From an uncultured Porphyromonadaceae bacterium (GTDB taxonomy: Bacteria; Bacteroidota; Bacteroidia; Bacteroidales; Muribaculaceae), in NCBI GenBank assembly GCA_947643165.1, contig CANRVB010000010.1, forward strand, positions 24,296 through 88,295: 64,000 nt of DNA, written 5' to 3'. A model generated the notes under the pieces. It saw nothing but the letters and a program-made list of their open reading frames with translations, was not told the DNA's origin and ran no database searches. Numbering within the stretch: position 1 is the first letter of the stretch; each line of letters opens with the position of its first letter. Shown piece by piece: positions 5,413 through 50,728 of this stretch. The position numbers and the translations under genes were made by a program.

Positions 5413-5442
5413 CAAAATTAGTGCTTTTATCATTATAAACAA
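5413..5442 (-). promoter_or_regulatory. Promoter of the DUF2795 gene
   Basis: On the minus strand TTG-N19-TAATTTTG is seen (-7 box at 5413-5420). The -33 part overlaps the 3' end of the upstream adenosyltransferase gene. Confidence 0.6.
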
Positions 5443-30841: not shown

Positions 30842-33262
30842 CTACTTGCCCGGCCTTAGCGTTACGCTCTTACCAGCCTTCAGGCTCAGTTCTCGCGTCT
30901 CTCCGTTCATATTTACCGAGACCCGCTCGTCAACCCTCGGATGGATCTCCGCCTTAACTACCTTGCCATCAGCCCATTCCATGTCGATTGTTGCACCCGT
31001 ACGAGTCCCCAGACCCGCTGCAGACCCACTTTGCCATGCACCAGGCAACGCCGGTAACAGACTGATACTGTGCGCACTACTCTGCACCAGCATCTCGGCC
31101 ACTCCCGCCGTCCCCCCGAAATTTCCATCAATCTGAAACGGAGAATGAGCATCCATCAAATTCGGATAAGTACCCCCTCCGCGGCGCGCATCCGTGCCTT
31201 TATATTGGTCCGGACTCACATATTTCAGCAGCGTTCTGTATGTCTCATAAGCCTTTACGCCATCTTTCAAGCGCGCACGCAGATTTATACGCCAGCCCGT
31301 GCTCCAGCCCGTGGTCTTGTCACCTTTCAGGTCAAGCGACCTCGCGCATGCCGCCGCAAGCTGAGGCGTCTTTTCCGGTGTGATATGATGGCCCGGATAC
31401 AGCCCTATAAGATGTGACTGATGACGATGTTCCGGCTCTACCTCTTTCCAGTCATAATACCACTCGCTCAGATTACCGCGGCTTCCCACTCTGTAGGGAA
31501 GCAGACGGGGCAACGCGGCATCTATCTCAGCCCTCAGATCTGCGTCGGCATCAATTGCCTGAGCAGCAGCGGCTGCCGCCGTCAGACACTCGCGTATGAT
31601 GGCCATGTCGGCAAATCCGCCATACGATGTCGCAACAGCTTTACCCTCAGAGGTATAGAACATATTTTCAGGCGATGTGCTTGGTGATGTGATCAGATAG
31701 CCGTCCTTCTCGACCATCCAGCCCAGACAGAACTTCGCGGCATCTCGCAATATCGGATAATACTTCTTCAGCATCTCCTTGTCGCGGTTGAACAGGTATT
31801 GCTCCCACACATGGGTCGCCATCCATGCGCCGCCCATGTTCCAGCATGCCCATGATGCACTGCCCGTACCCTCGCCAACAGGATCCGTATGGGCCCAGAT
31901 ATCCGAATTGTGCCCATTGCACCAACCACCATTGTCAACTCCGTAATACTGTCTGGCGGTCCGCTGTCCGTTCTTGCGCGTGCCGTCAAGGAATGTCAGC
32001 ATAGCCTCATGCGCCTCTCCGAGATTGGCTACACCTGCAGGCCAGTAGTTCTCCTCCAGATTGATATTCACGGTATAGTTGCTGCTCCACGGCGGCATCT
32101 GTGACTCGTTCCACAGACCTTGCAGGTTGGCCGGGACACCCTCCGTCCTTGATGATGATATAAGCAGATACCTGCCGAACTGAAAGTACAGTTCCTCAAG
32201 GTCGGGATCCGTGTTCCGGTTGTCGGAATATTCCATCAGGCGTCTGTCCGTTGTAAGATTGTGCATTTCCGGATCCGACTCACCCAGATCTATCGACACT
32301 CTGTCGAAAAACTGTCCGTAATCATCCCTATGGCGCTTCTCCAGATCCTTGAACTTACGTTTTGCCACATTCCGGATACGGTTGTCGGCCAATGATCTGT
32401 AGTTCTTTCCCTCCTTTACTGGATCTCGGTCGAAACCGTTGAAGCTGGTGGCATCAGCAAAGCCTACAGTAGCCCGTGTGGCTCCCGTTATCTCTATTGT
32501 CCCGTCGGGCATTGTCGTCACCTTGCCGTCGCAGTCCGACACGTTCAGTCTCATTCTGAAGTGTATGCCACGGTTGGGATCATACATCAGATTCTTTCCT
32601 TCTATCTGGTGATATACCGGACGTGCGTAATACGGTGCATATCCATCCGCATACACTCCAAGGTTGTCAGTACCAGCCTCATGCGGATGAGGAGTCCCCA
32701 GACTCAGCCTCACATCAAACGGCATCTTCGAGTCAAGTCTCACTACAAGAGCCGAATCGGGAGCTGAAGCCAGATATTTCACCTCAAACGGCATCCCGTC
32801 AACATCGTATGTTATCGTTGCTGTAGCTGTCTTCAGATCAAGTTCGCGCCGGTAGTTGGTTATAGTCGAAGTCTCCCGGCCAGGATAGCTCAGATACAGC
32901 CGGCCCAGTGGCTGAAATGACTGTGAATAATTTCCCTGCACCACACGGTTCAGCTTCTCCGCCAGTACGTAGTCGCCACGGTCCAGGGCCACTCTGATCT
33001 TGTTGATCTGATCACGGTGGTCAATATCTTCCTGAGTCTTTTCGGGTTCACCGCTCCACAGCGTTATATCGTTAAGCGACAGCGAGTCACACACAGCACC
33101 GCCATATATGGCAGCTCCCGTCGTGCCGTTGCCTATCACAAGGGTTTCCTCAAAAAATTCCGCCGGTCGGTCATACACCAGTTTCAACGGATTTCCGGCA
33201 CTGGCTCCGATAGCCGTCAGCCAGACCGCCATCATATAAATTCTCAGCCTCTGTTTTCCCAT
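30842..33262 (-). CDS. Alpha-L-fucosidase, glycoside hydrolase family 95
   Basis: The 806-residue protein begins with a signal peptide (residues 1-22) and has the GH95 N-terminal domain with GNGTTGAAIYGG and LSLNDITLWSGEP, then the (alpha/alpha)6 barrel with NLQGLWNESQMPPWSSNYTVNI and GCWNMGG-type (ACWNMGGAWMATHVWEQY) segments, and HSPFQIDGNFGGTAGVAEML near the end. GH95 enzymes cut alpha-1,2-linked fucose from host glycans with inversion. Length is normal. It is divergent from the NagB-LmbE gene and has its own -7 box. Confidence 0.94.
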   Translation of the reverse strand: MGKQRLRIYMMAVWLTAIGASAGNPLKLVYDRPAEFFEETLVIGNGTTGAAIYGGAVCDSLSLNDITLWSGEPEKTQEDIDHRDQINKIRVALDRGDYVLAEKLNRVVQGNYSQSFQPLGRLYLSYPGRETSTITNYRRELDLKTATATITYDVDGMPFEVKYLASAPDSALVVRLDSKMPFDVRLSLGTPHPHEAGTDNLGVYADGYAPYYARPVYHQIEGKNLMYDPNRGIHFRMRLNVSDCDGKVTTMPDGTIEITGATRATVGFADATSFNGFDRDPVKEGKNYRSLADNRIRNVAKRKFKDLEKRHRDDYGQFFDRVSIDLGESDPEMHNLTTDRRLMEYSDNRNTDPDLEELYFQFGRYLLISSSRTEGVPANLQGLWNESQMPPWSSNYTVNINLEENYWPAGVANLGEAHEAMLTFLDGTRKNGQRTARQYYGVDNGGWCNGHNSDIWAHTDPVGEGTGSASWACWNMGGAWMATHVWEQYLFNRDKEMLKKYYPILRDAAKFCLGWMVEKDGYLITSPSTSPENMFYTSEGKAVATSYGGFADMAIIRECLTAAAAAAQAIDADADLRAEIDAALPRLLPYRVGSRGNLSEWYYDWKEVEPEHRHQSHLIGLYPGHHITPEKTPQLAAACARSLDLKGDKTTGWSTGWRINLRARLKDGVKAYETYRTLLKYVSPDQYKGTDARRGGGTYPNLMDAHSPFQIDGNFGGTAGVAEMLVQSSAHSISLLPALPGAWQSGSAAGLGTRTGATIDMEWADGKVVKAEIHPRVDERVSVNMNGETRELSLKAGKSVTLRPGK

Positions 33263-33441: not shown

Positions 33442-35430
33442 ATGAAGACTAACCTAAGTTCGCAAATCAAACTCGAGCGCATTCCCAAGCGCTACTATGA
33501 CCCTCAGGGTGAAATTGAGTTTGCCGCTCTTACCCGCGAAGAAAAGATTTACACAAAGATCTTTGAGAACGCTACCGAAGGCAGCAGCTATCTCGCTGAC
33601 CAGATTGTACGCATAGTCAACCGCGCCATCGAAAAGAAAGGCAAAGCTGTGGTAGCTCTCGGTGCCGGTGCCTGCACCCACACCACCTACTCAGATCTCA
33701 TCGAGCTTCACAAGCAGGGTAAGATAGACTTCTCAAACGTTGTCATCTTCAATCTGTGCGAGTTCTTCCCTCTGCAGCCCGGAGGTCCAAGCACCCTCAA
33801 GCGTCTCCACGATGTGCTTCTCGACCATATCAATATCCGTCCTGAGAACATCCGTTCCATCGACCCCGCTGTCACTAAGGAAGATATGTTCCAGTATTGC
33901 AAGGCTTACGAACAGTCTATCGAAGACGAAGGTGGCCTTGACCTCGTAGTTTGCGAAGTAGGCCCGCAGGGTTGTCTCGCTTTCAACGAACCCGGATCTG
34001 CCAATACCACCCTCTGCCGCCTCGTGCTTCTCAGCAACGAGCTCCGTCAGTCTATCGGCAATGACTACAAGAGCGAATTCGCTCCCACAACCGCCATCAC
34101 TCTCGGTGTAGCCAACATACTTTCTGCCGAGCGTGTCCTCACTATGGCATGGGGCGAGAACCGCGCAGCCATCATCCGCAAGACCGTAGAGGAACCTGCC
34201 GATGCAAATGTTCCCGCATCGTTCCTTCAGGGTCATGCACATACCAAGCTCGTTCTTGATCTGCCTGCCGCTGAAGATCTCACACGTATCTCACAGCCTT
34301 GGAAGGTTACTTCCTGCGAATGGACCGACAAGCTCATACGTCGCGCTATCGTCTGGCTCTGCCATGCTACCGGCAAGCCCATTCTCAAGCTTACCGACAA
34401 AGATTACAGCGACCATGGTCTGGGTGAACTCCTGGCTCTCTTCGGATCAGCATACAATGTAAACATCAAGATCTTCAACGATCTTCAGCATACCATCACC
34501 GGTTGGCCCGGCGGCAAGCCCAACGCTGACGACACATACCGTCCGGAGCGTGCAAATCCATATCCTAAGCGTGTGATAGTATTCTCTCCCCACCCCGATG
34601 ACGACGTTATCTCGATGGGTGGCACACTCAAGCGTCTTGTCGACCAGAAGCACGATGTTCATGTAGCTTACGAGACATCAGGCAATATCGCCGTTGGCGA
34701 CGAAGACATGATGCGCTATTTCCTCATGATGGATAAGATCGCACCTATCTTCGGTTTCGACAGCGAAGGCTACAAGAAACTCTCGGCAGAAGTGCATGAT
34801 TTCGTTGGCCACAAGAAAGCCGGCGACATGGATTCAAAGGATATCCGTGAGATCAAGACTATGATCCGTCAGGCCGAGGCCACTATCGCCTGCAACTACA
34901 TCGGAGTGAAGCCCGGAAACATACACTTCCTCCGTCTGCCGTTCTACGAGACAGGTACAATCAAGAAAGGCGAACTTGAGGAGCGCGACGTAAACATCGT
35001 CAAGAAGCTTCTCGAGGACGTCAAGCCCCACCAGATATTCGTTGCCGGTGACCTTGCCGATCCTCACGGAACCCACAAAGTCTGCACAGATGCCGTACTC
35101 GCCGCTATCGACGAGCTCAAGGATGAAGAGTGGATGAAAGACTGCCGCATCTGGATGTACCGTGGCGCATGGGCTGAATGGGAAATCGACCATATCGAAA
35201 TGGCTGTGCCCATCTCACCCGAAGAGCTCCGTTTCAAGCGCAATTCTATCCTCAAGCACCAGAGCCAGATGGAAAATGCTCCGTTCCTCGGCAATGATGA
35301 CCGTCTCTTCTGGCAGCGTGCCGAAGACCGCAACCGTGCTACCGCGCAGCTCTACGAAGGACTCGGTCTGGCAAGCTACGAGGCTATCGAAGCTTTCGTA
35401 GAATACCACATCATCCGCGACAACCAGTAA
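33442..35430 (+). CDS. NagB-like domain fused to PIG-L/LmbE deacetylase domain
   Basis: The 662-residue cytoplasmic protein joins a glucosamine-6-phosphate deaminase-like domain (about 30-330) to a LmbE/PIG-L domain with FSPHPDDDVISMGG (His384-Asp-Asp, zinc and catalytic residues). It is usually annotated as nagB in Bacteroidetes. However, aligned with E. coli NagB the catalytic Asp72 is Cys106 (FNLCEFF), Asp141 is Gln176 and His143 is Cys178 (GPQGCLAFNEP); only Glu183 (Glu148) remains. The deaminase reaction is therefore doubtful, whereas the deacetylase motifs are intact. From memory, other Bacteroidetes members are also altered here. It is strongly expressed by codon use and ends with a perfect terminator. 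Confidence 0.88.
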   Translation: MKTNLSSQIKLERIPKRYYDPQGEIEFAALTREEKIYTKIFENATEGSSYLADQIVRIVNRAIEKKGKAVVALGAGACTHTTYSDLIELHKQGKIDFSNVVIFNLCEFFPLQPGGPSTLKRLHDVLLDHINIRPENIRSIDPAVTKEDMFQYCKAYEQSIEDEGGLDLVVCEVGPQGCLAFNEPGSANTTLCRLVLLSNELRQSIGNDYKSEFAPTTAITLGVANILSAERVLTMAWGENRAAIIRKTVEEPADANVPASFLQGHAHTKLVLDLPAAEDLTRISQPWKVTSCEWTDKLIRRAIVWLCHATGKPILKLTDKDYSDHGLGELLALFGSAYNVNIKIFNDLQHTITGWPGGKPNADDTYRPERANPYPKRVIVFSPHPDDDVISMGGTLKRLVDQKHDVHVAYETSGNIAVGDEDMMRYFLMMDKIAPIFGFDSEGYKKLSAEVHDFVGHKKAGDMDSKDIREIKTMIRQAEATIACNYIGVKPGNIHFLRLPFYETGTIKKGELEERDVNIVKKLLEDVKPHQIFVAGDLADPHGTHKVCTDAVLAAIDELKDEEWMKDCRIWMYRGAWAEWEIDHIEMAVPISPEELRFKRNSILKHQSQMENAPFLGNDDRLFWQRAEDRNRATAQLYEGLGLASYEAIEAFVEYHIIRDNQ

Positions 35431-35506: not shown

Positions 35507-35538
35507 TTTGGCAGATATAGTAAAAAATCCCATCTTTG
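35507..35538 (+). promoter_or_regulatory. Promoter of the first GH29 gene
   Basis: TTTG (35507-35510), 20 bases, CATCTTTG (one mismatch to TAnnTTTG). Confidence 0.5.
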
Positions 35539-35582
35539 TAACAAAACAATCTATTTACAACAAAACAATCTATCCGTATATC

Positions 35583-37061
35583 ATGAAAAAATGTCTCATG
35601 GCATCGGCCATTGCCATTGGTACGGCGATTCTCTGTTCATGCTCCTCCAAAACGGCGGTTTCAACCGATCCGCAGCCCACACCCGGTCAACAAGCCATGA
35701 TCGACCGGAAATATGGCATGTTCCTGCACTATGGCATGAATACTTATCTCAACGCCGAGTGGAGCGATGGTTCCGCGTCGGCCTCCACGTATGCTCCGCC
35801 TGCCGACATTGCCCGTAAAGCTGCCCAATGGGTCAGCAATGCAAAGCGGGCTGGCATGAGGTCGATAGTTCTGACAACCAAACATCATGACGGATTCTGC
35901 CTGTGGGACAGCGAATACACCGACTACGATATTGCCAACGACAGTATAACCAACAAGGTGGATATTGTCCGTGCCGTGGCCGATGCGTGCCGAAATGAAG
36001 GTATAGCGTTCTCGGTCTACTATTCTCTATGGGACCGGCACGAACCTACCTATCGCGATGATGACAAGTCAGTCTACATCGACTACATGAAAGGGCAGCT
36101 CACCGAACTGATGACCAACTATGGACCCGTAGCCGAACTTTGGTTTGATGGAGCCTGGGACCGGAAACTTGAAGACTGGAAATTGCAGGAACTTTATGAT
36201 TGCGTCAAGGCCCTGCAGCCCGACTGCCAGATCTCTACCAACTGGACTATAGGCAAACGTCCGGTCGATATGCAGGCGGGTGATTCGATAATCTATTTTC
36301 CATCGGATTTCCGGCTCTGGGATCCATATCTGCCGGTCGCCGACGATCCGAAGATCTACACTCACAGTGGCAAACAATACTACCTGCCGTTTGAGTCCAC
36401 CCAGACGATCTCCGTCATAGGCAATTGGTTCAACCATCCTGAAGACACCACCGTAAGAGGGGTCGACGAGCTCGAAGAGATATTCCATGTAGCTACAGCC
36501 AACGACAACTGCCTGCTGCTCAATGTCCCTCCGGCTACCGATGGTAATCAAAACGCTCAGGCTGTAGAAAATATCATTGCATTGGCAAAAAGATTGGGTA
36601 TTGAGAATGGTGGCGATTTCCCGGTATCAGCAAAAAGGCCTGTGAATATTCTCACCGATGCCGTAGCCAGTGCTTCAAGCGTCAATAAGAACGATACTCT
36701 GCATTGCGGCGCACATCTTGCCGTAGATTACGATGTCAGCACGGCTTGGGTGTCGGCCGATTCTCTCGCATCAATCAATATAAAACTTGTGCGTCCGGCC
36801 ACATTCAGCTCCGTTTCCATCATTGAAGGCGAGAACAGCATACGTCGCTTCGATCTGGAGATCCTCGCTGATGGCAAGTACAAGTCGGTCTATTCAAGTC
36901 CGCTCATACCTGAACCGACAGGGCAGAGCTTCATGGGCTACGGACTGATCGAGTTCACTCTGCCGCAGGCTGTGACGACCGATCAGCTGCGCGTGACCAT
37001 CAATCAGTCGAACGGCACCCCTGCCATCTACTCCATCCGTCTTACGCAAGGCAAGCAGTAA
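35583..37061 (+). CDS. Alpha-L-fucosidase-like glycoside hydrolase family 29 lipoprotein
   Basis: The ATG at 35583 gives 492 residues beginning with a lipoprotein signal (AIGTAILCSCSS). The GH29 barrel carries KYGMFLHYGMNTY, LTTKHHDGFCLWDS and the nucleophile Asp189 in ELWFDGAWDR. The C-terminal ~130 residues (SASSVNKNDTLHCGAHLAVDYDVSTAW ...) form a discoidin-like (F5/8 type C) module. No acidic surface-export signal follows the lipid cysteine, so it is probably periplasmic. It should remove alpha-linked fucose (retaining). It lies between the NagB-LmbE gene and the riboswitch and is transcribed alone. Confidence 0.92.
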   Translation: MKKCLMASAIAIGTAILCSCSSKTAVSTDPQPTPGQQAMIDRKYGMFLHYGMNTYLNAEWSDGSASASTYAPPADIARKAAQWVSNAKRAGMRSIVLTTKHHDGFCLWDSEYTDYDIANDSITNKVDIVRAVADACRNEGIAFSVYYSLWDRHEPTYRDDDKSVYIDYMKGQLTELMTNYGPVAELWFDGAWDRKLEDWKLQELYDCVKALQPDCQISTNWTIGKRPVDMQAGDSIIYFPSDFRLWDPYLPVADDPKIYTHSGKQYYLPFESTQTISVIGNWFNHPEDTTVRGVDELEEIFHVATANDNCLLLNVPPATDGNQNAQAVENIIALAKRLGIENGGDFPVSAKRPVNILTDAVASASSVNKNDTLHCGAHLAVDYDVSTAWVSADSLASINIKLVRPATFSSVSIIEGENSIRRFDLEILADGKYKSVYSSPLIPEPTGQSFMGYGLIEFTLPQAVTTDQLRVTINQSNGTPAIYSIRLTQGKQ

Positions 37062-37103: not shown

Positions 37104-37133
37104 TTGCTTTCTTGAAATAATGACGTAACTTTG
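37104..37133 (+). promoter_or_regulatory. Promoter in front of the cobalamin riboswitch
   Basis: TTG (37104-37106), 19 bases, TAACTTTG (37126-37133). Transcription would begin about where the aptamer begins. Confidence 0.75.
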
Positions 37134-37138
37134 TGGCC

Positions 37139-37310
37139 ACGTTTTGGTGTCGCGCCCGCGCGATGAAAAGGGAATCAGGTGCAAATCCTGGACAGACCCG
37201 CTGCTGTAAGTTCCGCAAGGCCCCCGTCATTCATGTCACTGTCGCCATAGGGCGATGGGAAGACCGACGGTAGGCTGGAACAAGTCAGAAGACCTGCCAT
37301 TACAACATAG
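37139..37310 (+). ncRNA. Cobalamin riboswitch
   Basis: The conserved core of the B12 element is readable in order: GGGAATCAGGTGCAAATCC, ACAGACCCGCTGCTGTAAG, the GTCACTG ... GGGAAG arm, and the B12 box AAGTCAGAAGACCTGCC (37282-37298). It lies in the leader of the TonB receptor operon. Behind the aptamer, GGCAGA (37336-37341) can pair either with CTGCC of the B12 box or with TCTGCC (37356-37361), a plausible switching element; there is no T tract, so control may be at translation or by another hairpin. Binding of adenosyl- or another cobalamin is expected to turn the operon off. Confidence 0.95.
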
Positions 37311-37446
37311 TTTTGTCGCCTTCGGGTTATAATGCGGCAGACCATTCTTCGGGGCTCTGCCACTCTTGATCAGTCGTGTGGCTTATTACGCCTTGTTGTG
37401 GTTTGATGCACAATCCTTTGCGGCTTGTTCCAACCACATCAGTCAT

Positions 37447-39792
37447 ATGAGTCTCCGACTTATCTCCATTCTTATCTCTTTACTTATTATTGTCACGGTC
37501 TCAGCCCGTGACCTTATCACTATTTCCGGTCGTGTAACCACTATCGACGGTTCGCCGGTCGAGGCCGCAATTGTAAGGCTCGATTCCACGGATACTCTCA
37601 GCCGCACTGATTCTATCGGACGTTATTCCATAAGAGTACCGGCAGGACAAGTCTCTCTATCGGTCTCTATGACAGGCTTCAATCCAATAAGCCGTACATT
37701 CACCCTCTTCTCCTCGTCAACGGTCAACTTTCAGCTGGCCCCCGTCAACGCTCTCTCCGAAGTCACAGCCTATGGTAAGACCAAGCTACGTCAGCTGCGC
37801 GAAAGCGAATTTTCGGTCAATTCAGTCGACGTGGCAGCGGCAGTCAATACAACAGCGACATTATCCGATCTTGTCGGACGCACGGCCGGAGTCAGGATAC
37901 GCACAACAGGTGGTCTCGGATCTGATTTCGATGTCACTCTAAATGGTCTCACCGGCAGCGCAATCCGTTACTTCATTGACGGCATACCCATGGAGTCGCG
38001 CGGATCCGACGTGTCCCTCGATAACCTACCGCTCAATCAGATAGAGCGTATCGATATCTATAAAGGTGTTGTTCCCGCTTTTCTCGGCACTGACGCAATG
38101 GGGGGAGCCATCAATATTATCACACGCGCACAGAAGCGACGCTATATCGACGCTTCAGTCAGCGCAGGATCTTTCCATACATTCAAGGCCGACTTCGCGG
38201 CCCAGACAGTCGAGCCAAACACAGGGCTGATCATTCGCCCGACTTTCAATTACGGCTATTCAAAGAACGACTACATGATGAGAAACGTCGAAGTCTGGGA
38301 TAAGGATGCCGACAGATACATCACTACCGACCGACGGCGATTTCACGATGACTACCGCTCCATAATGGGGCAGATTGAAGCAGGTTTCGAAAACAAGTCC
38401 TGGGCCCGCAGCCTGTTCATCTCGGCCTCTTACACTGATCTTGACAAGGAGATTCAGACAGGGTCGGTACAGGCTATAGTCTATGGTACTCCACGTCGTC
38501 TAAGTCATGCCTGGAGCCTCGGTGCACGATATGTAAAGGACAATCTGTTTCTCCGTGGTCTGACACTCAATCTGAGCCTTTCACACACATGGGATCGCTC
38601 GCAGACAGTGGATACAGTATACCGCAAATACGACTGGAACGGCAACTGGATCCCAACACAACGCAACGAGATCACCGGTGGAACCCGATCAATACGCCAT
38701 TACCTCCGCCCGCTCACTGTTGTCCGCGCTAATCTCAACTACCGGTTCGCCGACATACATGTGCTTGACATGAATTACTCCCTCAACCGCACAGGAAACA
38801 AGCGCTATGATGACCTCGACCCTGAATACGATCCAGCCAAAGATATTCTCGGTAAACATATAATAGGACTCTCTTACTCACATTCTCTCCTCGATGAGCG
38901 ACTCCAAAACACCATTTTCGGAAAATCATACATCGAACAGCTACGCATCGTACAGCTCTCCGACAAGTGGAGCGACAATGCCCGTGAGTCATCGACAAAG
39001 ACGTTCTGGGGCTACGGAATCGGATCGCGATACAACATCATCGATCCATTACAGGTAAAGTTTTCGTTTGAACATTCTGTACGTCTGCCACTTTCACGCG
39101 AGATGCTCGGCAACGGAACCACAGTCTCCGCCAACCTCTCTCTCAAACCCGAAAACTCCGACAATCTCAACCTCGGAATTTTCGGCAATCTACGTCTTGG
39201 CAATAATCATTCCTTCTACTATGAAATCGCAGGTTACCTGCGACACGTCAAGGATATGATACATCTTGTCACCAACGAAAACACCGGACTCTCTGTCTAC
39301 GGCAACATCTCCAGCGTCAATGTCAGGGGCATCGAAGGAGAACTCGGCTACCACTTTGCCGACAAGTTGCACCTCACAACCAATTGGAGCTACTCCGTCA
39401 GCCGCGACATGAACGCCCGACGCTCCGATGGGAAACCTTCGGTCACCTACAAAAACCGTATTCCCAACCGCCCGTGGTTATATGGGAACACCGAACTGAC
39501 CTATCTACATCATGGACTGATCATGCCACACGACAAAGTCCGTGCTGGCTACGTATATCAATACGTCCACTGGTTCTACCTCACTTGGGAAGGCTACGGT
39601 AGCCTCTCATCCAAATCTAAGATCCCGACACAAAACCAGCAGAACATCTACATCACCTACTCCTGGCTTGATGAACGTTATAATGCGACTCTTGAAGTCG
39701 ACAACATCTTTGACCGAATCCTCTACGACAACTACAAGCTACAGAAGCCCGGACGATCAATCATGGCCAAATTCCGCATTTTCCTTCAGTGA
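37447..39792 (+). CDS. TonB-dependent receptor under cobalamin riboswitch (XusA/BtuB-like)
   Basis: The ATG at 37447 gives 781 residues with a signal peptide ending VSA. A carboxypeptidase-like domain (ITISGRVTTIDGSPVEAAIVRL) is followed by a plug (LVGRTAGVRIRTTGGLGSDFDV, FIDGIPMESRG, IERIDIYKGVVPAFLGTDAMGGAINII) and a 22-strand-type barrel ending MAKFRIFLQ. Sequence style and operon partners (DUF4374, PepSY) match the xenosiderophore receptor XusA, but the riboswitch indicates corrinoid control. It probably imports a corrinoid or a metal complex whose need depends on corrinoid status. The upstream part of the track ORF lies in the riboswitch leader. Confidence 0.92.
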   Translation: MSLRLISILISLLIIVTVSARDLITISGRVTTIDGSPVEAAIVRLDSTDTLSRTDSIGRYSIRVPAGQVSLSVSMTGFNPISRTFTLFSSSTVNFQLAPVNALSEVTAYGKTKLRQLRESEFSVNSVDVAAAVNTTATLSDLVGRTAGVRIRTTGGLGSDFDVTLNGLTGSAIRYFIDGIPMESRGSDVSLDNLPLNQIERIDIYKGVVPAFLGTDAMGGAINIITRAQKRRYIDASVSAGSFHTFKADFAAQTVEPNTGLIIRPTFNYGYSKNDYMMRNVEVWDKDADRYITTDRRRFHDDYRSIMGQIEAGFENKSWARSLFISASYTDLDKEIQTGSVQAIVYGTPRRLSHAWSLGARYVKDNLFLRGLTLNLSLSHTWDRSQTVDTVYRKYDWNGNWIPTQRNEITGGTRSIRHYLRPLTVVRANLNYRFADIHVLDMNYSLNRTGNKRYDDLDPEYDPAKDILGKHIIGLSYSHSLLDERLQNTIFGKSYIEQLRIVQLSDKWSDNARESSTKTFWGYGIGSRYNIIDPLQVKFSFEHSVRLPLSREMLGNGTTVSANLSLKPENSDNLNLGIFGNLRLGNNHSFYYEIAGYLRHVKDMIHLVTNENTGLSVYGNISSVNVRGIEGELGYHFADKLHLTTNWSYSVSRDMNARRSDGKPSVTYKNRIPNRPWLYGNTELTYLHHGLIMPHDKVRAGYVYQYVHWFYLTWEGYGSLSSKSKIPTQNQQNIYITYSWLDERYNATLEVDNIFDRILYDNYKLQKPGRSIMAKFRIFLQ

Positions 39793-39813
39793 TCTGATCA
39801 ACAGATAATCAAA

Positions 39814-39837
39814 ATAACTATAACTATAACTATAACC
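39814..39837 (+). repeat. Hexanucleotide repeat ATAACT x3 plus ATAACC
   Basis: Three perfect and one imperfect tandem hexamers lie in the 52-base gap between receptor and lipoprotein gene, 8 bases before the lipoprotein ATG, where slippage could alter translation. Confidence 0.85.
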
Positions 39838-39844
39838 AATTCCT

Positions 39845-41140
39845 ATGAGACACTTTAAATTATCCTGGATGATGCTGGCTATCGCAGCCATATCGTTCAC
39901 ATCCTGCTCAAGCGATGACGAACCCGACAGTGACATCGGAGGCGAAAACATCAAAGACGTCCACTTCGATGTATGGGTGACTGCAGGCACGAGCAATGGA
40001 ACCGCCTATCTCGTCAAGAACGTCAACTCCCTGGAAGATCCGCAGACAATCACATTTGACAATTCCGGCTGTGATATCACAGGTAAGCTCGACCAGGAGA
40101 TCATCGTCAAGGGTAAATATTACTATGAAGTACCGCCTACGGGCGATTGCTTCGGCAAATATCAGATCACCAATACCGGTCTGGTAACAATAGCCCGACG
40201 CCCGTTCGAGAAAAATACATACCGCGCATACCGCTACTGTCACGCCTGGATTGACGACAATACTCTCGTCATAATGAGCTCGGATGGCGATAAGAAAAAA
40301 GCCCTCTGGACAAAACTCGATGCAGCCAACATGACCATCATCGAAGAGGGTGAATTCAACTTCACAGAACTCAGCGGCATCTCCGCCCTCACCACATCAG
40401 GACTCCTCGGATATCGTGAGAGCGATGGCAAACTCATCTACTTCTACGCCCGGTCAGCCTTTGCATTCGACGGATTCTACGCCGCTTTCATCGATGCAAA
40501 GACCATGACCGTAGACAAGATAGCCCATATGGAGAAAGACGTAGTTATGGCCGGCACATCCTATGGTGAGCTTCTTCAGCATAAAATGGCCTTTGACAAC
40601 AACGACAATCTCTATATCGCGGCCAACTTCCATATTGACAGCTTCTCAAGCACAACCCAGCAGTATGGACGCATCTTCCGCATCAACCGTGGCGAAATGG
40701 ACTTCGATCCGTCATATGAAGGTTTCAAGACCGACCCATCAGGAGTTGCTGACCGTGGCAAGATCCTCACCATCGACTACATGGGTATGGGATCACTCGT
40801 TCTGTGCATTCAAGATCCCGAACACTGTGGGGTAGTCATTGATCCTAACGACAAAAACCACGGATGGGGCAACAACTATAACGTCTACTATTGTATGCTC
40901 GACATCAACAGTGACATATCAACCGAGTTCCTCTACGACGGTAAGCACCTGCCATATTCGCAAGGTACTTTCGCACAGCGCTCATTCGTGCTCAATGGCA
41001 AAGTCTACATCGGGACTAATCCGGCCAACTCAGAGCCTACAATCTATGTCTACGACATCCGTTCGCGCACGATGAACATGGGAGCAAAAATTCAAGAAGG
41101 CTTCGGTTTCGACCGCATAACCTACGTCCAGGGCAATTGA
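39845..41140 (+). CDS. DUF4374 beta-propeller surface lipoprotein (XusB-like)
   Basis: The 431-residue protein has a lipoprotein signal ending ISFTSCSSDDEPDSD; the acidic residues right after the cysteine match the Bacteroidetes surface-export signal, so it should sit on the cell surface. The rest is beta-rich with repeated propeller-like strands (GKLIYFYARSAFAFDGFYAAFIDAKT, QQYGRIFRINRGEMDF, GKVYIGTNPANSEPTIYVYD). DUF4374 includes XusB, the propeller that binds ferric enterobactin in Bacteroides thetaiotaomicron. Here it follows a receptor under a cobalamin riboswitch, so by analogy with BtuG it could capture corrinoids (inference). Confidence 0.85.
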   Translation: MRHFKLSWMMLAIAAISFTSCSSDDEPDSDIGGENIKDVHFDVWVTAGTSNGTAYLVKNVNSLEDPQTITFDNSGCDITGKLDQEIIVKGKYYYEVPPTGDCFGKYQITNTGLVTIARRPFEKNTYRAYRYCHAWIDDNTLVIMSSDGDKKKALWTKLDAANMTIIEEGEFNFTELSGISALTTSGLLGYRESDGKLIYFYARSAFAFDGFYAAFIDAKTMTVDKIAHMEKDVVMAGTSYGELLQHKMAFDNNDNLYIAANFHIDSFSSTTQQYGRIFRINRGEMDFDPSYEGFKTDPSGVADRGKILTIDYMGMGSLVLCIQDPEHCGVVIDPNDKNHGWGNNYNVYYCMLDINSDISTEFLYDGKHLPYSQGTFAQRSFVLNGKVYIGTNPANSEPTIYVYDIRSRTMNMGAKIQEGFGFDRITYVQGN

Positions 41141-41195
41141 TCCTGACCATATACTGAATCAATCATCTATCCAGTCAGCCACATTCCGTTCAGCC

Positions 41196-42653
41196 ATGAA
41201 TAAAGCAGTCCGCACCCTCTTCTCCCTGCATCGAATCACCGGAACAATTATCGCACTGTTTTTCCTCATGTGGTTCTTTACAGGACTCGTGCTCATATAT
41301 CACTCTTTCCCGCGTCTCTCCAGTGCTGCGACATACAGTCATATGTCAGCGCTCCCGCAGACCATAAACATGCCCGACACGCTGCCACAACAACTCAAAT
41401 CGTTGAGCATACGCAGCTTCCAGGGGCAGACTGTCCTGCAATGGAAAGCCGGAAAGAGCACAGTCACCATTACCGACAACAATGAGTCCCTGCGCCCTGT
41501 AACATTTCAGACTGTCCGTGATGTGGCCGCAGATTGGATAGATGCACCCATCGCTAAGGTAGATACCCTATATGACCGCGACCAGTGGATTATGTATTCA
41601 CGGTATGAACGCGATATGCCTATCTACAAATTTTACTTCGATGATCCAGATCAACACCAGCTCTACATAGCATCCCGCACGGCGACGCCACTCCAGCTTA
41701 CCGACCGCACTCAGCGGTTCTGGTCATGGATAGGTGCCATACCACATAAATTCTACTTCCCATTCATGCGTCGAGATGTCGACAAATGGAAAATCTGGCT
41801 CGCACTCGGAGGGTCACTCTGTCTCATTGCCTCACTGTCCGGTCTGATCGTGGCTCTCTACCTGTGGATACGCAACCGGCTCCACACCAGCAGATGGTAC
41901 AACCCATTCAAAACGCGACTTCTACGCCTTCACTTCACCTTCGGGCTTGTTTTCGCCATACCCCTGATAGCATGGAGCATCAGCGGCATCATGTCGATGC
42001 AGAAAGTTCCGACATGGATTGTCCCCATAGAGGGGGAGCGCTATGTCAGCCAGCGCGATATGTGGGGCGGCGGCATGCTCCCTCTCAGCCAATACAGGCT
42101 ATCTTATGCTACCCTCCGTCAGGCATATCCCGAACTTAAGCAGATCGACTACACACGACGTGGATCCATACCGGTATATGACATCATTGTCGGCGACACA
42201 ACCCTTATGATAGACGCCTCAACCGATACAGTCAGACCACTCTTCATTCCTCCGGCCGACATCTTTGCCGGATTGCGCAACATACATGGCGACGATGCCC
42301 CCATTCATGTAACCCTACAGAATCACTACGACAGCCAATATTTCTCAATATCCGGCCGTGCAGAGTTGCCCGTCTACAAGGCCACCGTCGACAACCCAGA
42401 TGGTTCTCTATACTATATTGATCCTCGCGACGGACATATTACCTACCTCAATCACAACAAGATCCTACGGCGCTACCTATTTAGCGGAATCCACTATCTC
42501 AACCTTTCCTGCTTTACCGGACATCCGTTGTTATGGAAAGTGTGTATGTGGATAATATGTTTGGCGGGTATAGTATTCTGCTTCACATCGGCTTGGTTGG
42601 GTGTGAAGTACATACGCCGCAAACTGAAATTAAGATGTCCGCATGACTGCTGA
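41196..42653 (+). CDS. PepSY-family inner-membrane protein (XusC-like)
   Basis: The 485-residue protein has four membrane segments at about residues 13-35, 205-226, 248-268 and 446-468, with a large extracytoplasmic part between them. Histidines suited to heme or metal binding lie at the membrane edges (LFSLHRITG, IPHKFYF, LLRLHFTFGL, SGIHYLNL). PepSY-type membrane proteins such as XusC and bacterial ferric reductases are thought to reduce substrates taken up through the outer membrane. In this operon it could reduce the cobalt of an imported corrinoid or release iron (inference). It is the last gene of the riboswitch operon. Confidence 0.85.
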   Translation: MNKAVRTLFSLHRITGTIIALFFLMWFFTGLVLIYHSFPRLSSAATYSHMSALPQTINMPDTLPQQLKSLSIRSFQGQTVLQWKAGKSTVTITDNNESLRPVTFQTVRDVAADWIDAPIAKVDTLYDRDQWIMYSRYERDMPIYKFYFDDPDQHQLYIASRTATPLQLTDRTQRFWSWIGAIPHKFYFPFMRRDVDKWKIWLALGGSLCLIASLSGLIVALYLWIRNRLHTSRWYNPFKTRLLRLHFTFGLVFAIPLIAWSISGIMSMQKVPTWIVPIEGERYVSQRDMWGGGMLPLSQYRLSYATLRQAYPELKQIDYTRRGSIPVYDIIVGDTTLMIDASTDTVRPLFIPPADIFAGLRNIHGDDAPIHVTLQNHYDSQYFSISGRAELPVYKATVDNPDGSLYYIDPRDGHITYLNHNKILRRYLFSGIHYLNLSCFTGHPLLWKVCMWIICLAGIVFCFTSAWLGVKYIRRKLKLRCPHDC

Positions 42654-42824: not shown

Positions 42825-42898
42825 GGGGTATTAGCTCATCTGGCTAGAGCGCGACACTGGCAGTGTCGAGGTGAGCGGTTCGAGTCCGCTATACTCCA
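42825..42898 (+). tRNA. tRNA-Ala (GGC)
   Basis: Cloverleaf: acceptor GGGGTAT/ATACTCC (one G-T pair), D arm GCTC-ATCTGGCTA-GAGC, anticodon stem CGACA/TGTCG with loop CTGGCAG (anticodon GGC), T arm AGCGG-TTCGAGT-CCGCT. CCA is not encoded. Confidence 0.95.
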
Positions 42899-43597: not shown

Positions 43598-45706
43598 TTA
43601 CCAGCTACCGTGCTCTTTCTTGTATTCTTTGAAATCGGCGGCACGGTCACAATCACCATTGTAGTTCCATGTTATGGTGTCGGTATATTGCTTTCCATCG
43701 GCACCAGCCGTAGCGAGCAACACGTTCTTGCCATCGTCAAGACGTACATTGTCGAATATGTAGTGAACGTCAGTATTGCCACGTCGTGGGGTGCCCAGAT
43801 CCCGGCCGTTCAGTGTCACGTGGGGTGTACCTACGTTGGAGTATACGGTGACTGAGGTTTCCCTGCGCTCGCGCTTGTCGTTGCGGCGCTGTGTCAGGTA
43901 TACTACCGGATCCTTGCTCCAGTTGGCTTTGTACCAGAAGTATGAGTCCTTCTTCGTCTTTCTGTCGAAGGTCATCATGCCCTTCATGTTGCGGGCTTCG
44001 ACGCTTCCGCGTCGCGATGTCGGCACGGCGAAGTCGAACATATTCCATAGATACGAGGCTACTATCTGCGGATGCTTGGCTATTACAGGCCAGTGGGTCT
44101 CGTGCGTTTTGGTCTGGAAGGTCTCCGGATAGAACGGACTTGTCCAGTCAAGGGCGTCGCCCAGGAGCTCTGTCTGATGTGCTATGTTTGCGTCTGCGCC
44201 ATATTCGCTCAGTATCAGCGGACACCACGGATATTCGCGCTCTATCCTTTCGATCCAGGGCTCTATATCCTGTAGCTTGCGCTCATACCAGCCGAAGTAG
44301 CGGTTCATGCCCTGGATATCGGCATTTCCGTTCACAGGATGCTCTACCGTGCCATAACCGTTCACCGAGACAGTATATCTGTCAGGATCCTCTGTCTTGC
44401 ACAGGTCGTGGATGCTCTGTGTGAGCGCGGCGGTGTAGCCATGAGGGTGATACACCTCATTGTGGATGCCCCACACATAGATCGACGGATGATTGAAGCT
44501 CTGACGGATAAGCTCGCGCATCTGCTGGTGGGCGTTATCCCATTCCTGACCGGTCACACTGTTGACAAACGGTATCTCGGCCCAGATCACCAGGCCCAGA
44601 CTGTCGCAGCGGGAGTAGATGTAATCCGATTGCTGATAGTGGGCGAAACGTACGGTTGGCGCGCCGATATCCATGATCTGGTCCAGATCGAAATCATGCT
44701 CCTTGTTGGTCAACGCGCTTCCCAGACCCCACCAGTCCTGATGTCGGGTCACACCATACATCGGATACTTTTTGCCGTTAAGATAGAATCCGTCACCGGC
44801 CACGATCTCATACTTTCTGAGACCCAGCGGCTGGACGATCTCATCCACCTGCCGGCCATCCTTATACAGGCGCGACACCACCTTGTAGAGATACGGATCC
44901 TCGCGGCCTTGCCACAGATGGGGCTTGTTGATCCTGAACGTCGAGGTGTACGACTGTATGCTCTGCGGTGAGAGCGAGAATGTGCGGCTGTCAGTCTTCA
45001 CCAGACGGCCGTTCATATCATATACCGAATTTTCAAGACGCATCGAAGCCGGCTGTTTCATGTCATTGCCGACCTTGACCTTTACTGCGACATCGGCCGA
45101 CTTGCTGGACACATCCTTCTGGGTAATGTACACGCCCGGCGAGGCGTAGTCGTTGACAACTATCGCACATGGATCTGTAGCCACCAGCCATACCGGACGG
45201 TAAATACCTCCGTAGACGCCGAACAGCACGTGGTTGACCGGAATGACATCCGGACGCGCGGCATTGTTGGCCTTCACTATTATCTCATTCTCCTCGCCAT
45301 ACTTCAGCTGTTTGCCTATCTCGCATGCAAAAGCCGAATACGCACCCTTGTGAGTGCCGGCAAGATAACCGTTGACATATACCTCCGCACATGCTCCTAC
45401 GCCCTCAAAGCGTAGAAATACGCGCTTGTCCTTCAGTTTGGGGTCGGGAGTGAAGCGCTTGCGGTAGTAGGCATCGCCGGCATAGAACGATGATGCCTTT
45501 TTCTGCATGTCGTCAGCGTTCCATGTATGTGGAACCGTCACCGCTTCCCAGTCAGAGTTGATTTTCTGAGAGCTTTTCAATGCATCGGCAGGAAAAGGAC
45601 CCTTTTTGAACTCCCATCCGTCGCAGAACGAAGTGACCTCGCGTGCTGTTCCAGCTAAGGCGACAAAAAAGAGGCAAAATAAAAAATTTAGAATACGGAT
45701 CTTCAT
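43598..45706 (-). CDS. Glycoside hydrolase family 2, probable beta-galactosidase
   Basis: The 702-residue protein has a signal peptide, a sugar-binding jelly roll (FCDGWEFKKGPF ... VPHTWNADDMQ, RFEGVGACAEVYVNG), an immunoglobulin-like domain and a GH2 barrel. Acid/base Glu417 lies in WGIHNEVY and nucleophile Glu501 in LSEYGAD. It is shorter than E. coli LacZ, as usual for exo-acting GH2 enzymes of Bacteroidales. The last gene of the operon, it would remove beta-linked galactose (or a related residue) after fucose has been trimmed. A hairpin separates it from GH29. Confidence 0.9.
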   Translation of the reverse strand: MKIRILNFLFCLFFVALAGTAREVTSFCDGWEFKKGPFPADALKSSQKINSDWEAVTVPHTWNADDMQKKASSFYAGDAYYRKRFTPDPKLKDKRVFLRFEGVGACAEVYVNGYLAGTHKGAYSAFACEIGKQLKYGEENEIIVKANNAARPDVIPVNHVLFGVYGGIYRPVWLVATDPCAIVVNDYASPGVYITQKDVSSKSADVAVKVKVGNDMKQPASMRLENSVYDMNGRLVKTDSRTFSLSPQSIQSYTSTFRINKPHLWQGREDPYLYKVVSRLYKDGRQVDEIVQPLGLRKYEIVAGDGFYLNGKKYPMYGVTRHQDWWGLGSALTNKEHDFDLDQIMDIGAPTVRFAHYQQSDYIYSRCDSLGLVIWAEIPFVNSVTGQEWDNAHQQMRELIRQSFNHPSIYVWGIHNEVYHPHGYTAALTQSIHDLCKTEDPDRYTVSVNGYGTVEHPVNGNADIQGMNRYFGWYERKLQDIEPWIERIEREYPWCPLILSEYGADANIAHQTELLGDALDWTSPFYPETFQTKTHETHWPVIAKHPQIVASYLWNMFDFAVPTSRRGSVEARNMKGMMTFDRKTKKDSYFWYKANWSKDPVVYLTQRRNDKRERRETSVTVYSNVGTPHVTLNGRDLGTPRRGNTDVHYIFDNVRLDDGKNVLLATAGADGKQYTDTITWNYNGDCDRAADFKEYKKEHGSW

Positions 45707-45734
45707 ATTTGATGTCGATTTGTTTTATTGCATG

Positions 45735-45765
45735 GCCGGCGGCAGTCACAACCGACTGCGCCGGC
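45735..45765. other. Intergenic stem-loop between GH29 and GH2
   Basis: GCCGGC-G-GCAGTC/GACTGC-GCCGGC pairs with a single bulge and a 6-base loop; no T tract follows on either strand, so mRNA processing or stability is more likely than termination. Confidence 0.6.
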
Positions 45766-45791
45766 ATAGCCTCTCGATCCTGAAGTGATGA

Positions 45792-47237
45792 TCAGGTTAA
45801 TGCGTCACGGTAACGGTCGGTCTCGTTAGCCGAATCCTCTACCTGGAGTTTTATGACAAACGGACCTTCGGGAGTCTTGGTAGGCACATCCACGTTATAC
45901 TCGTTGCGTGCTGTCTCTGTCACAGGGGTCTCCTTGCCGCCGAGAACGGTAGCCTTTACAACCTTCACACCCTTGGGAGTCTGAACTGTCAGGTGACGTG
46001 AGTAAGGCACATTGAAAACGGCCATATATACGTCGCCGTTCTTGCTGCGGGTGTAGTAGCCCCACGGCTGCTTCTGCCATCCGGCATAGTCGCAGCCATA
46101 GATGCATTCGCCGTTCTGCTTCATCCATTTGCCCACCTGTTCGGCCATATCCTTTTCCTCCTTGCGGAAGTCGCCGTCGGCTTGCGGTCCGAAGTTCACG
46201 ACCATGTTGCCGCCCATCGATACGGCATGGACAATGCGCTCGAGCACCTCGATCGGGGTCTTTACATAGCTCAGCGACCAGTCTTTGTGATATCCCCACT
46301 GATTCTCGGGGATAGTCATGCACGCTTCCCAGTCCCAGCGGGTTACCTTCAGGTCCTTTACGGGATCTGGAAGACGGCGCTCGTAGCCCGACTCATAGTC
46401 ACCCATCAGGTGGCCGTTGCTGTCGAAGTGACGTTTGCCATTGTCATCGGCACGCAGGCGGCTGTTTATGGTCACGCCCGGTACGAGCTCCTTAAGCATT
46501 TTTTCGGCATGTGCTGTCCACCATCCGTTTTTCTTGAGACTCGCGTCCCAGGTTCCGTCAAACCAGAAATCTTTCACTGTCGGATAGCGTGTGGCGAGTT
46601 CGCGGAGCTGGTTGTCGGTGAATTCCAGGAATCGGTCGAAGGCTATCTTGTCCTCTTCCGACTTTATGTCGTAGCGGTAGTCGGGATTGCTCCAGTCCAT
46701 CACCGAGAAGTAGAAATGCACATCGATACCCTCGTCGTTGAACGCCTTTACCATCTCTCCGAGAAGATCCTTCTTGTAGGGGGTGTTGGCTACGGTATAT
46801 TCGGTATACTTGCTGGGCCACAGGCAGAATCCTTCATGATGTTTGGTTGTGATCTTCACATATTTCACACCCATCTGCTTTGCCATGCGGGCCCACGACT
46901 TGGCATCGAATTTGGTAGGATTCCACTGATCCATCAGAGCGAGCCATTCATTGGCGGGAACTTTTGCCCACGACTTCAGCCACTCTGCGGCTCCGCTGTA
47001 CATCTTGCCGTTCCACTCACCGCCGGGAATAGCATAGAGACCCCAGTGGATGAATGCGCCCAGACGGTTGTCGCGGAAGCGCTGCATATCGGTATCCTGA
47101 CGTTTGCCAAGACGTTCTGCGCCATACTTCAGCGGTATTTCCATCTCTGCGGGGAGGGGAGCCGGTTGCTTCATCTGGGCAACAGCACTTCCGCTGAGCA
47201 TAACTCCGAGTATGACACCGAGTATAGATTTTATCAT
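45792..47237 (-). CDS. Alpha-L-fucosidase, glycoside hydrolase family 29
   Basis: The 481-residue exported protein has a signal peptide ending SAVA and a GH29 barrel with LGAFIHWGLYAIPGGEW, ITTKHHEGFCLWPSKYT and nucleophile Asp227 in DFWFDGTWD. The C-terminal beta-sandwich is short. It would release alpha-linked fucose with retention. It lies in the SusC/D locus, and has its own -7 box upstream behind a strong hairpin. It is clearly different from the GH29 enzyme at 35.6 kb, which has a discoidin module. Confidence 0.93.
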   Translation of the reverse strand: MIKSILGVILGVMLSGSAVAQMKQPAPLPAEMEIPLKYGAERLGKRQDTDMQRFRDNRLGAFIHWGLYAIPGGEWNGKMYSGAAEWLKSWAKVPANEWLALMDQWNPTKFDAKSWARMAKQMGVKYVKITTKHHEGFCLWPSKYTEYTVANTPYKKDLLGEMVKAFNDEGIDVHFYFSVMDWSNPDYRYDIKSEEDKIAFDRFLEFTDNQLRELATRYPTVKDFWFDGTWDASLKKNGWWTAHAEKMLKELVPGVTINSRLRADDNGKRHFDSNGHLMGDYESGYERRLPDPVKDLKVTRWDWEACMTIPENQWGYHKDWSLSYVKTPIEVLERIVHAVSMGGNMVVNFGPQADGDFRKEEKDMAEQVGKWMKQNGECIYGCDYAGWQKQPWGYYTRSKNGDVYMAVFNVPYSRHLTVQTPKGVKVVKATVLGGKETPVTETARNEYNVDVPTKTPEGPFVIKLQVEDSANETDRYRDALT

Positions 47238-47260
47238 GTTGATTGTTTTGTGATTGATTA

Positions 47261-47268
47261 CAAAGATA
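47261..47268 (-). promoter_or_regulatory. Internal -7 box before GH29
   Basis: TATCTTTG on the minus strand about 24 bases before the GH29 ATG, downstream of a terminator-like hairpin; it may allow separate expression of the two enzymes. Confidence 0.5.
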
Positions 47269-47294
47269 GATATATTTTTTCAGTCGATTGTAAA

Positions 47295-47330
47295 TAAGAT
47301 CAGAGTGGTGCCGTGGCACCACTCTGATAC
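47295..47330 (-). terminator. Terminator-like hairpin behind the SusCD-lipoprotein genes
   Basis: ATCAGAGTGGTGCC/GGCACCACTCTGAT is a 14-base perfect stem with a 3-base loop; on the minus strand CTTATTTAC follows. It could attenuate read-through into the enzymes. Confidence 0.65.
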
Positions 47331-47334
47331 TCAC

Positions 47335-48684
47335 TTATCGGTTGATTCCGAGATTGAATTCAGCCACACCGAAAGTCATGCCTGACGACGGATAGGTCAG
47401 GGCAACTACTTTCACATAGCGATAGGTGAATTCCTCGCCTTCATTGATATCGATGCGCTGCTCGGCATTGGTGCTTACCTCAGATACGTCGATAGGCTTG
47501 CTGTTGAGCTTGGTCCACTTGCTGCCTGTGACCGATGTCGCTCCGGTATATACAGAGTCGTCATTGCTGCCATACAGATCGAGCGTAAGTATCCGGTTGT
47601 TTGCCGCATTGCGGTGACACCACATCAGATATGTGAATGTCTGGGCCGACTTCATGTCGACTATGAAGTAGTTTACAACATCTCCATCGGGATTGGCCGA
47701 GGTGCCGGCAGCGGGATCACCGCCAACCGAGCGGATCAGGTCGTTGAGCTGGTCACCATAAGCCTGGTTGGCTCCGCTCCAGCCGCTTGCAGAGGCATCG
47801 CAGGTGTATTCGCCGCGGCCGGGTTTCTCCATGCAGAAGTAGGTGAGGTTGTTGCCGTCAAACAGATCGGCAGGAGAGCCGACCAGAGTGGGTACACCGT
47901 TTACCGACACCTTGTCGGGAACCCAGCTGATACCGGCAGGCAGATAGTTGAAGCCCGACGGCTCGAGAGCGGCGGCCGATACTGCGGTCCAGCCATTGCG
48001 GGTCAGGTCTACAGGCTGATAGCCGAGAACAGTCACATTGGCCGTACGTGTGGCTCCGCTGCCATCCTGAGCTGTGATGGTGATGACTGCGGTACCTTCC
48101 ACATCGCCTGATGTCACTATGCCGTCTTCGCTTACGGTAGCTATGCTCTCGTCCGAAGATTCGTATGTGACAGTCTGGTTGTAGGCATCGGCCGGATTGA
48201 ATGATATTGTCGATGCCAGATTGAATGTACCCTTTTCGCCGCCACCCTTTTTGATCTGGATGTTGGCACCGGCAGCAGTCAGGTTGATATCCTTGACGCG
48301 CTTGATATGGTTGGTGATGATCACGACATAGTTGACCGAAAGACCACCTGCCGACACTGTAAGCGTGTCAGTTCTTGTCTCCGGGTCATATATTGTCTCA
48401 CCACCGCTGAATAGTGTGGGAGTCAGTACATTGCCCTCCACAGTGAGCCAATCGGGATGACGGGTCACGAAGGTGGCGTTGATCGGATCCTTTGTCTGAG
48501 GCATGGTGAACAGCGTCAGGGGCAAAGTCTCGTTGTCCTGCAGGTTAAGCACCATGCGGTTGTTGGAGTAGGTAGCCTCTTTTATGGTCAGAGCACCGAA
48601 TTCATCTGCCTTGTCATCGCAGGCGCTCAGAAGCGGAAGCACTGCAGCAACCGATGCATAGATATATGGTATTATCTTTTTCAT
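47335..48684 (-). CDS. Surface glycan-binding lipoprotein with Ig-like and discoidin-like domains
   Basis: The 449-residue protein has a lipoprotein signal ending LPLLSACDDKADEFG, with the acidic surface-export signal. After an N-terminal BACON/DUF-type region, a BIG2-like immunoglobulin domain is seen (YESSDESIATVSEDGIVTSGDVEGTAVITI), followed by a C-terminal discoidin-like domain (FDGNNLTYFCMEKPGRGEY, YFIVDMKSAQTFTYLMWC, RYVKVVALTY). It sits in the SusE/SusF position, 24 bases behind SusD, and is expected to bind the target glycan on the cell surface. Confidence 0.82.
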   Translation of the reverse strand: MKKIIPYIYASVAAVLPLLSACDDKADEFGALTIKEATYSNNRMVLNLQDNETLPLTLFTMPQTKDPINATFVTRHPDWLTVEGNVLTPTLFSGGETIYDPETRTDTLTVSAGGLSVNYVVIITNHIKRVKDINLTAAGANIQIKKGGGEKGTFNLASTISFNPADAYNQTVTYESSDESIATVSEDGIVTSGDVEGTAVITITAQDGSGATRTANVTVLGYQPVDLTRNGWTAVSAAALEPSGFNYLPAGISWVPDKVSVNGVPTLVGSPADLFDGNNLTYFCMEKPGRGEYTCDASASGWSGANQAYGDQLNDLIRSVGGDPAAGTSANPDGDVVNYFIVDMKSAQTFTYLMWCHRNAANNRILTLDLYGSNDDSVYTGATSVTGSKWTKLNSKPIDVSEVSTNAEQRIDINEGEEFTYRYVKVVALTYPSSGMTFGVAEFNLGINR

Positions 48685-48708
48685 TGCGTTGTCTGTTGTC
48701 TTTGAGTG

Positions 48709-50697: not shown

Positions 50698-50728
50698 TGT
50701 TGGCTTATGAAATGTGATTATCAGAGGA

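Follow-up and report, generated by a model that had tools for sequence, protein, structure and literature searches.

What does an outer-membrane uptake system carry when it is built like the Xus iron systems but controlled by B12? The question is raised by an operon in a 64,000-nucleotide stretch of DNA, hereafter the window, from an uncultured Porphyromonadaceae bacterium (assembly GCA_947643165.1, contig CANRVB010000010.1, positions 24,296 to 88,295). The operon comprises a TonB-dependent receptor (TBDT), a surface beta-propeller lipoprotein and a PepSY inner-membrane protein, preceded by a cobalamin riboswitch (RS). It probably encodes an import system that B12 represses and that serves synthesis of the corrin ring, and not iron acquisition or general B12 scavenging. 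As to its cargo, we tentatively favour a tetrapyrrole or metallotetrapyrrole precursor such as sirohydrochlorin, siroheme or cobalt-sirohydrochlorin. The features of the operon are:

37126..37133 (+): candidate Bacteroidota-type -7 promoter element TAACTTTG, a sequence match to TAnnTTTG, directly before the aptamer
37128..37315 (+): cobalamin riboswitch aptamer, RF00174 (Rfam 107.3 bits, E 6.8e-26, model positions 1-189)
37336..37361 (+): hairpin in the stretch that separates the aptamer from the start codon (folded with ViennaRNA; the 171-nt leader has z -2.0)
37447..39792 (+): XusA-family TonB-dependent receptor, 781 amino acids, PF07715 (Plug) and PF13620 (CarboxypepD_reg N-domain)
39845..41140 (+): surface lipoprotein with an XusB-fold beta-propeller, 431 amino acids, lipobox SFTSC followed by SSDDE (export signal-like)
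41196..42653 (+): PepSY_TM inner-membrane protein, 485 amino acids, PF03929

The initial annotation of this locus, made from the sequence alone, had described it as a XusABC-like uptake operon under the control of a B12 aptamer. Its aptamer is confirmed: the Rfam search calls it at full length and far over the gathering score of RF00174 (31.5). The three genes are also real; they are co-oriented and separated by gaps of only 52 nt (receptor to lipoprotein) and 55 nt (lipoprotein to PepSY gene). The receptor starts at the ATG at 37447, which opens a signal peptide, the listed TTG at 37366 being an extension; downstream, a tRNA gene at 42825 indicates that the operon probably stops after the PepSY gene. 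Repression by B12 riboswitches is already known in Bacteroides (PMC6143338). From general knowledge of Bacteroidota promoters, TAACTTTG may act as a promoter element (a sigma-70 promoter scan returned nothing), and the hairpin at 37336..37361 could form part of the expression platform.

The riboswitch is not peculiar to the window. We scanned 85,462 species genomes with an alignment of the lipoprotein and obtained 120 relatives, the best 80 of which were kept; these belong to Bacteroidota and, by title, nearly all to Bacteroidales. Where at least 330 nt of sequence precede the receptor, a cobalamin riboswitch lies upstream in 65 of 66 homologous loci, and Rfam agrees in all nine loci tested. 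The distribution of the family is also restricted. With CbiC as marker of corrin-ring synthesis, 27 (7%) of the 393 genomes of an order-level sample are corrin builders, and all nine strong carriers of the lipoprotein (E<1e-40) in this sample are among them (Fisher p 8e-12). CbiC is also present in 34 of the 37 carriers of the larger scan and in 14 of the 15 genomes of the window-type clade (p 3e-16); the one genome of that clade without it is an assembly that is fragmented and 87% complete. These carrier counts ignore phylogenetic relatedness, and some genomes fall in both sets. Such confinement to corrin builders fits poorly with general corrinoid scavenging or iron piracy.

Does the homology of the three proteins nevertheless point to iron? 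The receptor belongs to the XusA family: XusA 9GBC, from the XusAB complex (PMC13142918), is its closest relative of solved structure (E 3.5e-108). It is not a BtuB-family protein, as BtuB structures reach at best an E of 7e-9, over residues 137-396 only. Similarly, the receptor profile of the family gives 511 bits to the XusA of the same genome and 19.6 bits to its BtuB. The lipoprotein had been taken for a DUF4374 protein, but it has no Pfam match at E<0.01, neither DUF4374 nor DUF5074 being found, and only two of the 46 members of its family match DUF4374. By sequence it is distant from B. fragilis XusB (BfXusB; 9HQE, E 4.5e-5 with the single sequence), which is however the sole match of a profile of the 46 relatives against PDB (E 4.5e-8). 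Foldseek comparison of its AlphaFold2 model (pLDDT 87.5) places ferrichrome-bound BfXusB first (9HQK, E 1.3e-18, TM 0.75), followed by Barnesiella XusB and then BtuG (8PTF, TM 0.64); in profile comparison with the BtuG of the same genome, the alignment covers the signal peptide only. As modelled, the lipoprotein is XusB-like in fold yet lies outside the DUF4374 family model, so that the XusAB-like build recognised by the initial annotation holds, while the DUF4374 assignment does not.

For the PepSY protein, a sequence search against PDB returned nothing useful, and FoxB was pointed to by the fold search alone: 7ABW is the only significant PDB match of the model (pLDDT 86.8), at E 1.5e-4 and a low TM of 0.42. 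Four histidines (H12, H184, H246, and H433) are invariant in 37 of 37 relatives; in FoxB, histidines of this kind hold two haems (PMC13038864). The protein is thus predicted to be a haem-dependent metal reductase. It is not the XusC that had been assumed, as the XusC-like protein of the same genome obtains 2.6 bits (E 0.04) against the profile of the window PepSY family. Taken with the Xus-like receptor and the nearly constant riboswitch, this indicates a separate family, with a Xus-like front end and the riboswitch as a family trait, and not a XusABC operon that has come under B12 control. A true DUF4374-PepSY-XusA trio (DUF4374 E 4.8e-165) is kept on contig 5 of the same genome, without a riboswitch.

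These results bear on both readings offered by the initial annotation. One, siderophore piracy whose expression is tied to corrinoid status, draws on the XusA and XusB homology and on the reductase fold of the PepSY protein. We consider it very improbable: besides the riboswitches and the restriction to corrin builders, it leaves unexplained the family operons that are shared with CbiK, a HmuS-like dechelatase and cbi genes (see below), a separate trio without riboswitch exists in the genome, and the PepSY protein is not XusC-like. The other is a specialised route for corrinoid capture, import and reduction, perhaps for incomplete corrinoids. Known corrinoid importers are indeed under B12 riboswitch control, BtuG is the next-best fold group for the lipoprotein, and BtuF-FecCD-ABC genes, encoding an ATP-binding cassette (ABC) transporter, lie downstream at several loci of the family. 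A general corrinoid scavenger should, however, also occur in many auxotrophs, and cobamide users comprise nearly the whole phylum (PMC6461909), whereas the family is confined to corrin builders. In addition, the receptor profile favours XusA over BtuB, and the genome has a separate riboswitched BtuB-BtuG(DUF5074)-BtuF-BtuC locus. We therefore judge corrinoid capture unlikely. What stands of the original interpretation is, besides the riboswitch and the XusAB-like build, its expectation of a substrate tied to corrin metabolism and not to iron; the XusABC label, corrinoid capture as the default and siderophore piracy are not supported.

The genome itself (2.64 Mb assembly, 88.5% complete) contains five cobalamin riboswitches, one of which heads a sister operon. 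Contig 4 ends, after this riboswitch, within a receptor gene at the point where contig 14 starts; there is a 9-bp overlap across which the reading frame continues, and the two contigs presumably adjoin. The resulting operon would begin with the riboswitch, XusA-like and XusB-like genes, CbiK, a HmuS-like CobN, BtuF, FecCD and ABC, and continue with ApgM, CbiH-C, CbiE-T, CbiG-F, CbiJ-D, CbiA, a PduO-type adenosyltransferase and CbiP. Its XusB-like lipoprotein, on contig 14, is a second member of the window family (40% identity), and this contig has corrin-ring genes (CbiH-C, E-T, G-F, J-D, A, and P), as expected of a precursor salvager. The CobN-like protein scores as a dechelatase of the HmuS type (1084 bits versus about 300 for CobN), and CbiK, which carries an export signal, is similar to CbiK of Salmonella, to a chelatase of D. 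vulgaris and to FetB, which binds haem. Of the two remaining riboswitches, one on contig 21 (L007:7010-8270; 76.8 bits) lies about 340 nt upstream of a same-strand gene for a 238-amino-acid ion channel (PF07885), an odd target, and the fifth, on contig 46 (L009:194-391; 103 bits), runs into the contig end.

Other genomes combine the same parts. In the family tree, the PepSY-bearing clade of the window is apart from a CbiK-bearing clade, with few exceptions. In the closed genome G487, the gene order is RS-CbiK-XusA-XusB-like-PepSY-CbiHC, the window trio being located between CbiK and CbiHC. An export signal is predicted for 49 of 52 CbiK proteins, and some relatives also carry MotA/ExbB and DUF2149 genes. 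HemB-negative corrin builders without the lipoprotein family have other riboswitched operons with a receptor and CbiK, often with the same PepSY subfamily: RS-TBDT-CbiK-TBDT-PepSY-CbiHC in G280, G311, and G516 (with two PepSY genes in G280 and a BtuF gene before CbiK in G516), RS-CbiK-TBDT-PepSY-BtuF-FecCD-ABC-CbiL in G240 and G426, and RS-TBDT-CbiL-TBDT-CbiK-CbiK in G206. It is chiefly this gene order, which leads from the outer membrane to the earliest enzymes of the corrin pathway, that makes us propose a cargo of tetrapyrrole or metallotetrapyrrole type. Serial arrangements are also found. On contig CAMWVA010000012.1 (L020, L055), the CbiK/HmuS-like and PepSY/BtuFCD versions of the operon stand in tandem with a riboswitch between them, and Tannerella forsythia (G496, L243:3779-14691) has two serial riboswitches, the first heading XusA-XusB-like-PepSY-CbiK and the second a distant TBDT followed by another PepSY gene of the same subfamily.

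The HmuS-like protein and the FetB-like CbiK of the sister operon could also be read as a haem or porphyrin acquisition system that was drawn into the B12 regulon to supply iron or porphyrin; in B. fragilis, the CobN-like proteins BtuS1 and BtuS2 support the use of haem iron (PMC6460266). This reading appears improbable, since the window operon has neither HmuS nor CbiK, and since gut Bacteroidales need haem in general, whereas only corrin builders carry the family.

Why would corrin builders import a tetrapyrrole? Precorrin-2 salvagers have been recognised as a class (PMC6461909, PMC8123684): some Bacteroidota, as long noted for Porphyromonas gingivalis, have corrin-ring genes and no steps to precorrin-2, their tetrapyrrole source being unknown (PMC6461909). 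Carriers of the family resemble them. HemB is present in none of the 37 carriers of the larger scan and in one of the nine of the order sample, and SUMT exceeds the cut-off only in the twelve HemB-positive corrin builders plus G422. With HemB and SUMT missing, most carriers would be unable to make precorrin-2. The genome of the window also lacks HemB and has no SUMT over the cut-off; although it is incomplete, three genus mates, 99% complete, are likewise without HemB. Among corrin builders, carriers represent 8 of the 15 HemB-negative genomes versus 1 of the 12 HemB-positive ones (p 0.019). We propose, slightly more tentatively than for the cargo itself, that the operon is a dedicated riboswitched outer-membrane route for an early corrin precursor, of sirohydrochlorin or siroheme type, in ring-building but tetrapyrrole-deficient Bacteroidales, and would constitute the missing uptake step of precorrin-2 salvagers.

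In this proposal, low adenosylcobalamin would lead to expression of the operon. The propeller would capture the ligand outside the cell and deliver it to the receptor in the manner of XusB and XusA, and TonB would power import. With its two predicted haems, the PepSY protein could then reduce the bound metal in the periplasm, allowing its exchange or release. In the sister operons, exported CbiK and the HmuS-like dechelatase would exchange the metal, and the BtuFCD-like ABC transporter would bring the product in for the cbi enzymes.

Several observations weigh against a precursor cargo. Gut Bacteroidales generally lack HemB, which makes its absence weak evidence when taken alone. One carrier, G176, is both HemB- and SUMT-positive, and G163 (positive for HemB, SUMT and CbiM) still has a riboswitch-receptor-PepSY unit; a strong form of the proposal, with riboswitched TBDT-PepSY units exclusive to HemB-negative genomes, is rejected by the latter. 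CbiL, present in most other carriers, does not exceed 65 bits in any genome of the window's own family (G000, G017, G054, G095, G104, and G126). The path from precorrin-2 to the ring is thus incomplete in this family, where no enzyme is known that would take imported sirohydrochlorin further. As a separate observation, these six genomes have corrin genes from CbiH onward, neither SUMT nor HemB, and an unexplained placement of the C20 methyl. Finally, the homology of all three window proteins points to metal chelates, in the case of PepSY and XusB rather than free tetrapyrroles, which keeps import of a Co(III) chelate a strong rival.

According to this rival, cobalt is imported in chelated form (e.g. 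as a Co(III)-siderophore), and reduction of inert Co(III) by the PepSY protein yields labile Co(II) for corrin synthesis. It fits the restriction of the family to corrin builders and accounts for the HemB-positive carrier G176. The closest fold is that of ferrichrome-binding BfXusB, the PepSY protein folds like a siderophore reductase, and a pair of TBDT and PepSY protein is on record for copper (PMC13038864). Moreover, CbiM, the cobalt component of an energy-coupling factor transporter, is found in none of the nine order-sample carriers, whereas 8 of the 18 corrin builders that are not carriers have it (p 0.026); elsewhere it occurs in just 4 of the 37 other carriers and in G126. All eight CbiM-positive genomes of the order sample are HemB-positive (p 2e-4). 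Against the rival, the system is kept in five CbiM-positive carriers. Cobalt chelates would have no need for the exported CbiK, HmuS-like dechelatase and BtuFCD-like importer of the sister operons, and their import leaves the tetrapyrrole supply of HemB- and SUMT-negative carriers unexplained. A pure cobalt hypothesis was not accepted, as CbiM is present in five HemB-negative carriers, and we regard cobalt-chelate import as possible rather than probable. No cobalt-specific outer-membrane receptor has been confirmed (PMC7689651), and the family is a concrete candidate either for such a receptor or, as we favour, for the tetrapyrrole uptake of salvagers.

Precursor salvagers (PMC6461909) and the mechanisms of XusAB (PMC13142918) and of PepSY reductases (PMC13038864) are already known, and the operon can be placed relative to several systems. 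With XusABC of Bacteroides (PMC13142918) it shares an XusA-family receptor, an XusB-fold surface lipoprotein and a PepSY_TM protein in one operon; unlike Xus, for which an iron response is reported, it has a B12 riboswitch, a lipoprotein outside DUF4374, a PepSY protein of another subfamily, a confinement to corrin builders and relatives in operons with cbi genes. Bacteroides BtuB-BtuG (PMC6143338, PMC10404256) likewise combines a cobalamin riboswitch with a receptor and a surface propeller lipoprotein, but the window receptor is not of the BtuB family, its lipoprotein is not DUF5074/BtuG, a PepSY protein is added, and genomes that have no corrin-ring genes almost never carry the system. B12-regulated operons with BtuS (CobN-like) and CbiK, e.g. 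B. fragilis BF638R_2501-2512 (PMC6460266), have the CbiK and HmuS-like genes of our sister operon, whereas the window operon carries PepSY in their place; for such loci near B12 genes, metalloporphyrin salvage was proposed (PMC6460266, citing Rodionov 2003). The haem system HmuYRSTUV with its dechelatase HmuS (PMC12583661) resembles the sister operon in the HmuS-like gene and other relatives in the MotA/ExbB and DUF2149 genes, and differs in lacking riboswitch control, an XusAB-like front end, CbiK and corrin genes. The reductases FoxB and CrpH (PMC13038864) share the PepSY_TM fold and four conserved histidines, but the window protein forms a separate sequence subfamily.

In the literature accessible to us, which excludes most subscription journals, we found no description of the trio under a cobalamin riboswitch or of its link to precursor auxotrophy, and nothing on DUF4374 with a riboswitch or on a cobalamin riboswitch with PepSY. 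Systems of the XusA/XusB type probably do not all serve iron uptake, and labelling them siderophore piracy on similarity alone would misannotate a subset that can be recognised.

The corrinoid adenosyltransferase that had been expected to use reduced corrinoid exists (5433-6005, minus strand, PF01923), but it belongs to a different transcription unit some 31 kb from the operon and does not constitute evidence; another PduO-type enzyme is encoded within the cbi operon of the genome, as listed above. No plasmid match was found. Glycan-use genes flank the operon (30842-33262, 35508-37061, and 43598-53929), including GH95, fucosidases, GH2, and SusD-like and SusC-like genes (GH95, GH2 and one fucosidase were identified by Pfam, the others by sight), and a single gene at 33442-35430 fuses glucosamine-6-phosphate isomerase and PIG-L deacetylase domains.

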